Part shown: piece by piece, positions 30,513 to 36,339 of the stretch
Position numbering within the stretch: the stretch's first letter is position 1
Layout: each line of letters begins with the position of its first letter
Assembly (NCBI RefSeq): GCF_002214505.1
Contig: NZ_CP015103.1
Location: forward strand, 1,240,001-1,304,000
Length of the DNA: 64,000 bases
Reading direction: 5' to 3'
Origin: Thermococcus siculi
GTDB taxonomy: Archaea; Methanobacteriota_B; Thermococci; Thermococcales; Thermococcaceae
Notes under the pieces: model-generated
What the model saw: only the letters and a program-made list of their open reading frames with translations
What the model was told of the DNA's origin: nothing
The model's database searches: none
Position numbers and translations under genes: made by a program

Positions 30513-31486
30513 TGAAGGTTATTCGGTTCGGGCCTTCGATAGTCTTTCTGAGAACCGCCCACCCAGAGGCCCTTAAGGGGGCCTTGAAGGACGCTTTTGG
30601 CGTGGAGGAGATTGACACAGAGGAGGCGATAAGGAACAGCAACGAGTTTGAGACGATTCTGTTCGTGACCGACGAGTGGCAGAAGGAGACGCTCCCACCT
30701 GAGACGGGCTTCCTGGTGAAGTCCCACGCCCCCCTGGTTTTGAGCCAGATAGTAAACAGGGACTTTCCTGTTGAGAAGGTTCACGTGGAAAGCACGCTCA
30801 TACTCCTCAGGGTTCCCCAGAAGGTGGAGGAAGCCCTTCAAATCATAGCCGAGAAGTACGGCGGGGAGGTCATGGGCATAAAGGAGGCCTTTGACGAGGG
30901 GGAGGCAGAGGACACCATAGTCGGGGTCACACGGAAGAAGCTCAACTCGCCCATTGGGCCTGAGGATATAGAGGGCTCCGTCCTCATCAGGCGGCGCTTC
31001 CTCGATGTCTACAGGGAGCTGAGCATCGATGTTCCGGTTTTATTGCTCAAACTGATGCCCGAGTGGAACGAGCTTACCATCAAAATATACGACACCGACA
31101 AGCGCTACGAGGAGAACATCGAGAGGCTCATGATGGTCATCGAAGACCTCGACCTCGGCTTCATCGTCGGCGAGGGCTGGGACTGGGACTACCCCAGGCC
31201 CTTCATGCGCGTTCCCGTATACAAGCTCAAGCTCCTGACCTGGGAGAAGCCCGAGCACGTGAAGTTCCTCCTTAAGGGCATCGAGTATCACGGTTACAAA
31301 AGGCTCTGCGACATAGACGTCTTCGTCGAGGGCAAGAAGATACACTGGACGTCGCTCGGCAAGTACGACTCCAAGTTCGAGCTGGCGAAGGCTTCACGGG
31401 AAGAGCTGGAGAAGCACCTGAGTCCCGATGTCTCCAAGAGGCTCAAAGAACTCGATGAGAAACTCGCTGCGGAGTCAAAGGATTAG
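30512..31486 (+). CDS. Conserved hypothetical protein
   Basis: A 324-residue soluble protein without a family I recognise. It seems to have two alpha/beta halves. VKVIRFGPSIVFLRTAHPEALKGALKDAFG opens it; the centre contains IKIYDTDKRYEENIERLMMVIEDLDLGFIVGEGWDWDYP; the end is a charged helix. GTG 30512 overlaps the previous stop (TAGTG) and follows GGAGGGG by six bases, so it is favoured over the GTG at 30497. It is probably translationally coupled to the phosphoesterase-like gene. Confidence 0.7.
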   Translation: MKVIRFGPSIVFLRTAHPEALKGALKDAFGVEEIDTEEAIRNSNEFETILFVTDEWQKETLPPETGFLVKSHAPLVLSQIVNRDFPVEKVHVESTLILLRVPQKVEEALQIIAEKYGGEVMGIKEAFDEGEAEDTIVGVTRKKLNSPIGPEDIEGSVLIRRRFLDVYRELSIDVPVLLLKLMPEWNELTIKIYDTDKRYEENIERLMMVIEDLDLGFIVGEGWDWDYPRPFMRVPVYKLKLLTWEKPEHVKFLLKGIEYHGYKRLCDIDVFVEGKKIHWTSLGKYDSKFELAKASREELEKHLSPDVSKRLKELDEKLAAESKD

Positions 31487-32412
31487 AGCTTTTTGATTTT
31501 TGCAACGAAGAAGCCGCTCGTCCCGTGCCTGTCAGGGTAGAAGCGCCTCGCCTTCTTTATCTCCTCGCTCAGCTCGATGCCAAATGGATTTGTTAAAGCC
31601 GGCTCGCCGTATCTGAGGGGAAGAAGTTCCACGTCGAAGTTGTCGAGAACCCACTGGATAACGAACTCGTTCTCCTCCGGCTCGAGGGAACAGGTCGAGT
31701 AAACGAGGACGCCGCCCTTCTTCAGCACGCTCAACCCCTTTTCAAGGAGTTTCATCTGGAGACCCTGGCAGAACTTGACGTCATCCATCGTCCTGCTGGA
31801 TTTCCTCTCGGGGTTCTTGTGGATCGTTCCAGAGCCTGTGCAGGGCGCGTCGAGGAGGATTTTATCGAACTCGATTCCCAGTTCATCTATGTGGAGGGAG
31901 GAACTGTGAAAGAGGATAGTGTTCGTAACTCCTAAGCGTGAGAGGTTCAGCCTCGTCTCTTTCAGTCTCTCTTCCCCAACGTCGAAGGCGTAGATAATCC
32001 CCTCGTTCTCCATCAGTTGTGCTAGATAGGAGGTCTTTCCCCCCGGTGCCGCCGCCATGTCCGCAACGACCTCGCCGGGCTTCGGCTCAAGGGCAACGGG
32101 TGGATACATAGAGCTCGCCTCCTGGATGTAGAGGAGGCCCGAGAGGTATTCTGGAGTCGATGTTATCGAGAACGGCTCCCTCGTGAGGCAGAAGCCCTCC
32201 CTCGCCCATGGAACTCTTTTGAACTGGAAGCCCTTCTTGTTGAGGAGCTTCGTCAGCTTCGGCACTTCGGTGCGGAGGGTGTTAACGCGGAAGCACCTTG
32301 GAAGGGGCTTTTCCATGGCCTCGGCTATCGCTAAGGACCTCTCGCCCCAGAGCTGGTAATAGCGCTCCGCGAGGGTCTTTGAGTAGCCGAGGGAAAACAA
32401 TCTTTCGAGCAT
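31483..32412 (-). CDS. NOL1/NOP2/Sun-family RNA m5C methyltransferase
   Basis: SAM-dependent RNA cytosine-5 methyltransferase of 309 residues. SAM site motifs are VADMAAAPGGKTSYLAQL and YAFDVGEERL. The two catalytic cysteines are in DAPCTGSGTI and VYSTCSLEPEENE. An N-terminal segment (RCFRVNTLR) is the family's RNA-binding motif. ATG 32412 is chosen because a TATA (gattttaaac on this strand, 32432-32441) lies about 25 bp upstream; the longer frame runs through the ATPase gene's end. Archaeal members modify tRNA or rRNA; the target is not evident. Confidence 0.9.
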   Translation of the reverse strand: MLERLFSLGYSKTLAERYYQLWGERSLAIAEAMEKPLPRCFRVNTLRTEVPKLTKLLNKKGFQFKRVPWAREGFCLTREPFSITSTPEYLSGLLYIQEASSMYPPVALEPKPGEVVADMAAAPGGKTSYLAQLMENEGIIYAFDVGEERLKETRLNLSRLGVTNTILFHSSSLHIDELGIEFDKILLDAPCTGSGTIHKNPERKSSRTMDDVKFCQGLQMKLLEKGLSVLKKGGVLVYSTCSLEPEENEFVIQWVLDNFDVELLPLRYGEPALTNPFGIELSEEIKKARRFYPDRHGTSGFFVAKIKKL

Positions 32413-32440
32413 GGTTAGGGGTTGGGGAGAGGGTTTAAAA

Positions 32441-33757
32441 TCATATTGACCTCCTGCTCTTCTCCAGCCCGTAGAGGTAAAGTGAAGCAGGAACGGTGTC
32501 GTCTCCAACGTCTTCCTTTGAGACGTAAATGGTCGGAAACGGATAACTTTTCCTCTTCACCTTTCCGTACTTAACTTCGATCCCGAAGAAGCCCCTTCCC
32601 TTCACAACGAGGTCACACTCCCGGTTCTGGTCGTAGTAGAAACCGGCGAAGGAGTGCTTCTCCCTGAGGATAGGCTCCTCGATTGACCATACCACATGAG
32701 TTGCCACCGTGTGCTCCACGAGCCACTCTATGTTCTCCTCGACGAACTCAACTGGATCGTTTCCGAGGTAGAGGGCCAGGGCCGTCGCCACCAGCGGGCT
32801 CTGGAAGACCACTTTTTTCTCCTTCCGGTGGGCGTGCCTCTTCCTGCTGATGTCCCAGGCTTCGAGGACGTAGATGAGCCTTGCACTTTCGAGGGTGTTC
32901 AAATATTCCCTCACCGTCGGGTGAGAGACTCCCGTCTCACGGGCGAGGGTAACGTAGTCCACCCTGTTTCCCTTCAGTCTGAAGATAGCTTCAAGAAGCT
33001 CTCGAGCTGTTTCCTCGCTCTTTCCAGCCTTTGCTATCTCCCCTAAAGTGAGACGTGTTATCTCCTCGTACCTTTCCTCGCTAACCCTTCCGCGCCTCTT
33101 GAACTCGAGGACTGCCTCCGGAAAGCCCCCGGTGAGGATGTAACCGTAGAAAAGACCCTCAAGATCGTCGAACCAGGGGAGCAGATCGTCCACGACTGGG
33201 GATTTGTAGTTAAAGGCAACCTCCGGGAGCTTGGGATTGAGGAAGCGCGCGAACTCCCTGAAGTTCAGCGGGTTAAAATAGTACTCGTTCCCCTCTATTC
33301 CCCTCCCGGGAAGGAGTTCACTTTCTCTTTTAAGCTCCACGGGGTTTGATCCGGTTGCGACGGTGGTCGTCCGATCCTCCCCGAGGGCCTTTAGGAGGAG
33401 TCTCCAATCCTTGAGGTAGGTTATCTCGTCGAGGAGGACTGTTATCTCGCCGTGCCTCCTCCGGAGTTCCTCTATGAAGGAAGCCACTTCCTTCCTTGAG
33501 AACCTGTCGGCGGGGATGTAAACGATTTTCCTCGGGTCGGTTCCGGAGCTTATGAGTTCTCTCACAAGGGTTTTGAGATAAAAGCTCTTGCCCGCCCTCC
33601 TGACGCCCCTGAGGAGGACGACGCTTCCCGGATTAACCGTTATTCGCTTTCTTGGTATTATCTCTCCTGCCCTCGAGAGATCTGGGTCTTCTATCTCCCA
33701 GCCTTCTCCCTTCCACCAGGGGTTGTAGCGGACGAGCCTCACCATCCTGACTGCCAT
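32441..33757 (-). CDS. AAA+ ATPase of the ATP-binding/DUF4143 family
   Basis: A 438-residue P-loop protein typical of the proliferated archaeal ATPases. Walker A is LRGVRRAGKSFYLK (about residues 49-61) and Walker B ITVLLDEITYL. A sensor-like TTTVATGSNP follows. About residues 265-295 form a winged helix (VDYVTLARETGVSHPTVREYLNTLESARLIYVLE). The C-terminus has a nuclease-like DUF4143 segment, FYYDQNRECDLVVKGRGFFGIEVKYGKVKRKS, with the D-x(n)-E-x-K pattern of PD-(D/E)xK folds. It is leaderless from ATG 33757, and its promoter carries four phased palindromes. Confidence 0.85.
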   Translation of the reverse strand: MAVRMVRLVRYNPWWKGEGWEIEDPDLSRAGEIIPRKRITVNPGSVVLLRGVRRAGKSFYLKTLVRELISSGTDPRKIVYIPADRFSRKEVASFIEELRRRHGEITVLLDEITYLKDWRLLLKALGEDRTTTVATGSNPVELKRESELLPGRGIEGNEYYFNPLNFREFARFLNPKLPEVAFNYKSPVVDDLLPWFDDLEGLFYGYILTGGFPEAVLEFKRRGRVSEERYEEITRLTLGEIAKAGKSEETARELLEAIFRLKGNRVDYVTLARETGVSHPTVREYLNTLESARLIYVLEAWDISRKRHAHRKEKKVVFQSPLVATALALYLGNDPVEFVEENIEWLVEHTVATHVVWSIEEPILREKHSFAGFYYDQNRECDLVVKGRGFFGIEVKYGKVKRKSYPFPTIYVSKEDVGDDTVPASLYLYGLEKSRRSI

Positions 33758-33758
33758 G

Positions 33759-33874
33759 TGTGAAAGTACTCTTTCACAGTTTATAAGATTTGTGAAAGTT
33801 CACTTTCATAAATCGGCCTATTTGTGAAAACCAATTTTCACAAACTACAGCTTCTATGAAAGTCCACTTTCATA
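33759..33874. promoter_or_regulatory. Array of four palindromic operators, 32-bp spacing
   Basis: Four inverted repeats, each with a four-base spacer. P1 33759-33778 has arms TGTGAAAG/CTTTCACA. P2 33787-33814 has 12-base arms GATTTGTGAAAG/CTTTCATAAATC with one mismatch. P3 33821-33844 has ten-base perfect arms TTTGTGAAAA/TTTTCACAAA. P4 33855-33874 has perfect arms TATGAAAG/CTTTCATA. Centres are 33768.5, 33800.5, 33832.5 and 33864.5, exactly 32 bp apart, about three helical turns. The TATA box of the ATPase gene (cttataaa on the minus strand, 33780-33787) lies between P1 and P2. Confidence 0.9.
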
Positions 33875-35010: not shown

Positions 35011-36339
35011 TTAACGGGCCGCCCCAAGAATATCCCCCAAATCCCAGGCCAGATAGCCTTTCTTCCTGAGCTTTTCCTTTCCCTCCACGCTCCTGGCTAT
35101 GATACCCAGCCTGACGTTCCCGGCGGAGCGAACCTTTTCGGCCTTCGCCTCAAGCTTCCGGAGAACCCTTAGAGCGTCCCCCTCGCTCAAATCCCTCCAC
35201 TTGACTTCTATGAGAGCAGCTCCACTCTTTCCGAGGGCAACGATGTCTATCTCCTCTCCCCTGTACCACCACCTGCCGAGGCTCTTGAACTCTATTGGCC
35301 GGAAGAGCGTTAGGAACTCCCTCGCCAGCTCCTCGAAGCGGGTGGAATAGACCTTGTAAAGGTTATCAAACCTCGCTGTCCTGGAGCTTATCTCGGCCAT
35401 CTGAGGGTAAGTCAGGGTAAACCACGTGAGGAGCATCGGGTCTTTGATGCGGTAGAGGCTCACCTTCCTGCTCCCAAGGACAGGACTTTCCCGCTCAACG
35501 AAGCCCAGCTTCATCAGCGTTTCAACGTAGGGGTAAACGCTCCTCGCGGGTAGGCCAACGAAGTTAGCTATCCTCTCAAGCCTCCTGTTGCCCTCGGCTA
35601 TCGCCCTCAGTATCGAGAAGTACGTCTTCAGCTCCCTCAGCTCCTCACCAAGGAGGACGTATGTCTCGTCGTAGAAAAAGCCGTAGTCGCTCAGGAACTC
35701 CTCCCTTAGGAACTCCTCGATGCTGTCGTATCTGCTCGCGAGCCTTAAGTACGATGGAATCCCCCCGACGAGCATGTAAGCCCTTATCCCAAACTCCTTG
35801 TTGGAGAAGAACTCCAGGGCGTTTGGATAATCGAAGGGCCTGAGGTTCATGCTCCTCGTCCTTCTACCGTAGAGGGGCGAGGCATAGCTCAGCACATCAT
35901 CCCACATCATTCCAAGGAGGGAGCCAGAGAGCACGAGCATGACGCTTTTCTCGCTTAGGATGTTATCCCAAACCCTCTGGAGGTCGCTCAGTATCTTTCT
36001 ATCAGACCTTATGGCGTAGGTGAACTCGTCAAGGACAATCAAGCAGTCGTCAGCTTTCTCCGCTAGGTACCTTAAAAGGTCAAGCCAGTCGTCCGTCTTC
36101 AGCTTTCTAACGAAGTCATCACTGAGAAAATCCGCCATAGCCTCCCTGAACTCTCGCATCTGGACTTCCTTGACCGCCTCGGGGAAAGTGAAAAAGAAGG
36201 TCCTCTTGCCCTTGGAGAACTCCCTTAATAGGCGGGTCTTTCCAACTCTCCTCCTGCCGTAGAGGACGACGAAGGACGGCCTGTTTCCCCACTCATTCTG
36301 AAGAATCCTCATTTCCCTCTCGCGGTCTATGAATTGCAT
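35011..36339 (-). CDS. Archaeal ATPase (PF01637/DUF234 type)
   Basis: A 442-residue AAA-like ATPase. It opens FIDREREMRILQNEW, the usual start of this family. Walker A is LYGRRRVGKTRLLREF (about residues 28-42) and Walker B CLIVLDEFTYA. LVLSGSLLGMM is the sensor 1 region. A winged helix (RRLERIANFVGLPARSVYPYVETLMKLGFVERE) precedes the DUF234-like C-terminal nuclease fold (YRGEEIDIVALGKSGAALIEVKWRDLSEGDA; D-x(n)-E-x-K). The start follows GGTGAT, with a TATA element near 36350-36358. It is a different family from the ATPase at 32441, though both are nuclease-tailed. Confidence 0.88.
   Translation of the reverse strand: MQFIDREREMRILQNEWGNRPSFVVLYGRRRVGKTRLLREFSKGKRTFFFTFPEAVKEVQMREFREAMADFLSDDFVRKLKTDDWLDLLRYLAEKADDCLIVLDEFTYAIRSDRKILSDLQRVWDNILSEKSVMLVLSGSLLGMMWDDVLSYASPLYGRRTRSMNLRPFDYPNALEFFSNKEFGIRAYMLVGGIPSYLRLASRYDSIEEFLREEFLSDYGFFYDETYVLLGEELRELKTYFSILRAIAEGNRRLERIANFVGLPARSVYPYVETLMKLGFVERESPVLGSRKVSLYRIKDPMLLTWFTLTYPQMAEISSRTARFDNLYKVYSTRFEELAREFLTLFRPIEFKSLGRWWYRGEEIDIVALGKSGAALIEVKWRDLSEGDALRVLRKLEAKAEKVRSAGNVRLGIIARSVEGKEKLRKKGYLAWDLGDILGAAR

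Follow-up and report, generated by a model that had tools for sequence, protein, structure and literature searches.

The four inverted repeats upstream of an AAA_14-DUF4143 ATPase gene of Thermococcus siculi are predicted to form a private multi-copy operator of that gene, and the ATPase, as the putative binder, would repress its own promoter through its winged helix. Based on sequence comparison, this reading is given a probability of about three in four. The array lies in a window of 64,000 nucleotides (contig NZ_CP015103.1, positions 1,240,001 to 1,304,000), and coordinates below are those of the window unless given in kb.

Dyad array in the ATPase promoter

Four perfect dyads of the form TGAAA-N6-TTTCA start at 33761, 33793, 33825 and 33857, with centres at 33768.5, 33800.5, 33832.5 and 33864.5, and the exact 32-bp step claimed in the preliminary description was reproduced. 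Compared to the fuller motif TGTGAAAG-N4-CTTTCACA, the four dyads carry 0, 1, 2 and 2 mismatches. The arms of the third dyad are both changed symmetrically from G/C to A/T, and this change (AAAG/CTTT to AAAA/TTTT) keeps complementarity. The dyads and the features around them are as follows.

31483-32412, minus strand: rsmF-like RNA m5C methyltransferase gene, downstream of the ATPase gene, with the likely start MLERLFSLGYSK
32432-32440, minus strand: predicted rsmF TATA element TTTTAAACC, directly after the ATPase stop codon
32441-33757, minus strand: AAA_14-DUF4143 ATPase of 438 aa, the proposed autorepressor (PF13173, PF13635, PDC-S01)
32852-33016, minus strand: winged-helix region of the ATPase (residues 248-302, AlphaFold2 model), the proposed DNA-binding part
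33759-33778, no strand: dyad P1, TGTGAAAGTACTCTTTCACA, between the TATA element and the ATG, 0 mismatches to the fuller motif
33780-33787, minus strand: predicted ATPase TATA element CTTATAAA, between P1 and P2 and likewise placed in orthologs
33791-33810, no strand: dyad P2, TGTGAAAGTTCACTTTCATA, at the upstream edge of the TATA element
33823-33842, no strand: dyad P3, TGTGAAAACCAATTTTCACA
33855-33874, no strand: dyad P4, TATGAAAGTCCACTTTCATA
35011-36339, minus strand: neighbouring gene encoding an ATPase_2/DUF234 ATPase, matching the PADLOC candidate defence family PDC-S27 (6e-40)

Read along the minus strand, the order is P4, P3, P2, TATA element (33787-33780), P1 and ATG (33757-33755), so that P1 lies between the TATA element and the ATG and P2 abuts the TATA element on its upstream side, the placement described earlier. 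The symmetric dyads thus overlap the core promoter of the ATPase gene, with P1 and P2 on either side of the TATA element, and the same was observed in orthologs and paralogs. The TATA-to-ATG distance of ~26 bp suggests a leaderless ATPase transcript, since it fits known archaeal promoter geometry.

The genome (2,029,167 bp) was scanned by pattern matching against TGTGAAAG-N4-CTTTCACA with mismatches allowed. P1-P4 were the only sites with no more than 2 mismatches, and the 11 other matches on the forward strand all had 3 mismatches. A wider regulon was ruled out by the same scan, the genome having no further site within 2 mismatches of the motif. The array is present at a single locus in the genome, and no transposase was found among the five neighbouring ORFs in a Pfam scan. 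A doubled dyad pattern with the 32-bp step and up to 2 mismatches was found in 38 of 94 Thermococcaceae genomes, compared to 1 genome for the reversed control pattern, which bears out the earlier statement that the array is not a product of chance.

Predicted structure of the ATPase

The ATPase contains an AAA_14 domain at residues 45-169 (PF13173, 1.5e-20, 73.9 bits against a curated cut-off of 27) and a DUF4143 domain at residues 246-398 (PF13635, 2e-15, 57.3 bits against a curated cut-off of 28.1), and in PADLOC it matches PDC-S01 (2.4e-30), a candidate defence family. The AlphaFold2 model built from 17 sequences (pLDDT 85, pTM 0.86) shows that the gene encodes a predicted DNA-binding domain, a winged helix at about residues 248-302, composed of helices 248-261, 268-275 and 279-291 and strand 295-302. 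The helix SHPTVREYL is conserved among the orthologs with TGAAAG-type motifs, and residues 214-298 weakly resemble the HTH of Csa3/CasR, with a score below the curated cut-off. The sequence search of the ATPase against solved structures returned nothing significant, while Foldseek placed the archaeal AAA+ ATPase SSO1545 as the best solved structure and the Orc1/Cdc6 heterodimer on DNA (PDB 2qby) as the second best, both with modest TM-scores. Residues E380, D382, G392 and E394 are invariant across the aligned archaeal sequences in the DUF4143-containing protein, whose DUF4143 domain we take to have a putative PD-(D/E)XK nuclease fold.

Conservation of the array in close orthologs

A close full-length ortholog of the ATPase is present in 15 of 94 Thermococcaceae genomes including Thermococcus siculi, the others being 70-91% identical. 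In all 14 ortholog loci with enough upstream sequence, Thermococcus siculi included, 3-5 dyads were found upstream of the gene; 47 of their 54 dyads are perfect and 38 of 40 steps are 32 bp. The remaining locus (L008) is cut by a contig end after two dyads. The ATPase and the array also occur together at further chromosomal places (loci L013, L016, L020 and L021). In L011, L019 and L118, a similar segment of several hundred bp ending in GAGAACCTTTTAAACC was observed between the ATPase gene and rsmF. In a more distant ortholog from Aciduliprofundum (58% identity), which is interrupted in the reading frame that was tried, TGAAA-type dyads surround the same TATA element as in Thermococcaceae.

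Tandem dyads across the AAA_14-DUF4143 family

Promoters of 98 AAA_14-DUF4143 genes from Thermococcaceae, Thermoplasmata and Methanosarcinales/ANME archaea were scanned for at least two dyads of one motif, 26-40 bp apart, within 130 bp before the start codon. Two or more in-step dyads sharing a motif were detected in 87 of the 98 promoters compared to 8% of 294 dinucleotide shuffles, at least three in 41 promoters compared to none of the 294, and a strict mismatch limit was passed by 55 promoters compared to 0/294; the sample was picked by protein similarity and not by operator, and its members are related and not phylogenetically independent, so these percentages are descriptive. No dyad pair was found in 11 of the 98 promoters in the same 130-bp scan. 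As natural background, 5 of 47 promoters of the window passed the loose test and 1 of 47, the target itself, passed the strict one. The array as a general feature of archaeal ATPase genes was ruled out by the sister ATPase_2/DUF234 family of the same genus (loose 3/28, strict 0/28).

Both the motif and the step (32, 34 or 35 bp) are specific to the ATPase clade. Each motif is given below by its left arm and spacer, and is accompanied by its inverted partner.

32-bp step: TGAAAG-N4 (Thermococcaceae); TGGTAA-N6 (Methanosarcinales/ANME)
34-bp step: TTGGTA-N7, TTGATA-N6, TGAGAA-N7, TTTGCA-N7, TGTAAA-N7
35-bp step: TGCCGA-N7, TGGTAC-N8

Typically in the family, the TATA element is followed by the proximal dyad, which precedes the start codon, and is itself preceded by the next dyad. 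In a Methanosarcinales MAG (L201, JAUVLO010000046.1), at least eight TTTGGTAA-N6-TTACCAAA dyads in ~32-bp steps, some units nearly identical, stand upstream of a DUF4143 ATPase (match at 2501).

The claim that a 32-bp step, close to three turns of B-DNA, places all dimers on one face is correct for 32 bp (~3.05 turns at 10.5 bp per turn) and fails as a family rule. Strict helical phasing was rejected at that level, and the same-face argument is not general, because most relatives have steps of 34 or 35 bp (~3.2 and ~3.3 turns). As judged from these sequences, the step more likely reflects the footprint of a dyad, the gap for the TATA element and contacts between adjacent dimers.

Among 11 bacterial plasmid homologs, only the one from Enterococcus gilvus plasmid pCR1A (L224) has two perfect dyads, TTTGAA-N6-TTCAAA twice, 39 bp apart, upstream of the gene at 1144; the rest have one dyad, weak pairs or none. 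The two dyads lie near a bacterial-type promoter of the related ATPase and are possibly a bacterial version of the array. In the Arcobacter cloacae plasmid pACLO (L237, 593-1852), a related ATPase gene is located between cas3 and cas4 in a CRISPR-Cas locus.

Different motifs were also observed within a single genome. In Thermococcus siculi, the promoters of at least six AAA_14 ATPase genes carry differing motifs (TGAAAG, TGAGAA, GCGGTT, ATGTTT, TGGTAT and GTCATT). In 2.03 Mb there are exactly two copies of TGAGAA-N7-TTCTCA, which share one ATPase promoter, and genome-wide the exact TGAGAA-N7-TTCTCA and the TGTGAAAG motif within 2 mismatches are confined to the promoters of two different ATPases. 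The operator motif therefore changes with the encoded protein, being clade-specific, with two motifs each found only at its own ATPase. Since the ATPases of one genome use different motifs, one common regulator cannot explain the arrays; a motif that is private to one gene and changes with the protein of that gene indicates that the protein itself is the likely binder. The simplest reading is that each ATPase of the family would bind its own operator.

Arrays in genomes without the ATPase

The expectation that the array always precedes this ATPase family did not hold among the Thermococcaceae genomes, since about 22 of them have the array without a close ATPase ortholog. Most of these arrays immediately precede the native rsmF promoter, at one common junction, TTTCACAAACGAAGAACCTTTTAAACC, with small variations; among the remaining ones, some lie beside argF, with other sequence intervening before rsmF. 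An array unlinked to any promoter or carried by a transposable element had been named as evidence against an operator role. The arrays without the ATPase do lie mostly in a promoter region at one locus, and no transposon signs were seen. On the rsmF tree, which is poorly resolved, the state with or without the ATPase changes at least six times, at one junction.

Imperfect dyads were more frequent without the ATPase than with it (23/72 vs. 7/54, Fisher p = 0.019), and so were off-step spacings (14/51 vs. 2/40, p = 0.0055), in a comparison where the loci are non-independent, the search favoured intact arrays and the chain rule adds weak terminal sites. Array remnants without the ATPase were found in G069, which retains one dyad, and in G060, a relic, while a broken ATPase gene accompanies a shrunken array in G054. 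In eight arrays without the ATPase, selected for perfect steps, the cores differ by 0.8% between genomes, compared to 28% for the inner bases and 42% for the linkers. Simple decay of the array after loss of the ATPase is therefore only partly supported, the imperfection being higher yet the eight cores nearly invariant. Where the ATPase is missing, some other factor may preserve the array, and the conserved cores could result from a second function at rsmF or from exchange with ATPase-bearing strains that led to recent or repeated loss of the gene. Examples of intact arrays upstream of rsmF, with near-invariant cores in genomes without an ATPase ortholog, are L042, L043, L050 and L054.

Discussion

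In the proposed mechanism, an ATPase dimer would occupy each dyad, making contact through the winged helix. A dimer on P1 would cover the stretch from the TATA element to the start site, and one on P2 the upstream border of that element; TBP/TFB and RNA polymerase would thereby be sterically blocked and the gene repressed. P3 and P4 prolong the row at the same step, and neighbouring dimers probably bind cooperatively; contacts between them are suggested because P3 and P4 hold the step with no promoter element between them. Cooperative binding would make repression respond steeply to the protein level, and perhaps also to nucleotide state. It is from the position of the dyads that we infer repression rather than activation. 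The preliminary description had proposed that occupancy should repress and that the ATPase's own winged helix was one candidate regulator; comparison among genomes strongly favours both proposals (14/14 loci, a private motif, clade-wise change).

Control by a separately encoded regulator, which would bind the array and act on the ATPase gene and, where the ATPase is missing, on rsmF, would account for the ~22 genomes that retain the array mostly at the TTTCACAAACGAAGAACCTTTTAAACC junction and for the eight arrays with nearly invariant cores. It is nevertheless unlikely, because different ATPases of one genome have different motifs, imperfect dyads and off-step spacings are commoner in the arrays without the ATPase, relics of at most one dyad persist in G069 and G060, and the genome lacks a second close motif match. 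The array as a landing, recombination or cleavage site for the ATPase gene, with the ATPase-less arrays as empty or vacated sites, appears rather improbable. The possibly nuclease-like C-terminal domain, the switches in ATPase presence at a single junction and the joint occurrence of array and ATPase at other places are consistent with such a site, but the array is uninterrupted in loci that have the ATPase, P1 and the TATA element always separate the array from the gene, the family-wide dyads around the TATA element fit an operator better, and neither terminal repeats nor an integrase or a target duplication were observed.

Tandem sites next to a gene for an AAA+ winged-helix protein resemble Orc1/Cdc6 origins, in agreement with the fold match to 2qby, and the array might be regarded as a replication origin, iteron or centromere-like element. 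A replication origin was rejected, as the array is not beside the initiator gene: a single Cdc6 gene was found in the genome, at 465 kb, ~0.8 Mb from the array at 1,274 kb. Any element of this kind is very improbable, because the genome encodes six or more of these ATPases, whose promoters carry differing motifs, and because symmetric dyads stand on both sides of TATA elements. Hairpins of RNA or DNA (a terminator or cruciform) in place of protein sites would explain why the arm changes of P3 preserve complementarity; they are hardly credible, since transcription from the ATPase promoter, with its predicted leaderless start downstream of the dyads, would not include them, and a fixed step and clade-specific core letters would be unnecessary for them. 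A more speculative version of the operator, which we also regard as unlikely, is that the row of dyads serves as a nucleation platform for ATP-dependent assembly of the ATPase. Promoter occupancy would then sense the state of the protein (nucleotide, viral DNA), with release and induction upon infection, and genomes without the ATPase would keep the array as the gene is repeatedly regained there.

The operators of autoregulated archaeal repressors are dyads that overlap the TATA/BRE or the start site. The private operator proposed here is similar in that its dyads are placed to block TBP/TFB or RNA polymerase and a winged-helix protein is encoded directly downstream, and differs in that an AAA+ ATPase ending in a DUF4143 domain is the putative repressor and the operators stand in rows of 2 to at least 8 at a fixed step, with one motif per paralog. 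Orc1/Cdc6 proteins on origins (2qby) are likewise AAA+ proteins with a winged helix on DNA, whereas the present dyads are symmetric and lie in the protein's own promoter, distant from the Cdc6 gene. The ATPase_2-DUF234 archaeal ATPases have a similar architecture, with an ATPase, a winged helix and a C-terminal domain, and occur in the same genomes, but their promoters have no tandem in-step dyads, and many have one short dyad at the start codon, e.g., GAGTATTATACTC. In domain content (PF13173 and PF13635) and in its PDC-S01 match, the protein agrees with known AAA_14-DUF4143 ATPases, for which private tandem operators are provisionally a new feature. In the full-text literature searched, DUF4143 was named in one paper, on Thermus Argonaute (PMC4406477). 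That literature, outside of which most subscription journals lie so that novelty is provisional, contained no paper on these operators or on the role of DUF4143.

These results indicate that a large and nearly unstudied ATPase family, listed only as candidate defence, has private putative operators that differ between paralogs. The promoter of each ATPase gene thereby reveals the probable DNA ligand of the protein, and its specificity, nucleotide dependence and release signal become testable. In addition, the family provides a natural set of candidate orthogonal pairs of repressor and operator from hyperthermophiles.
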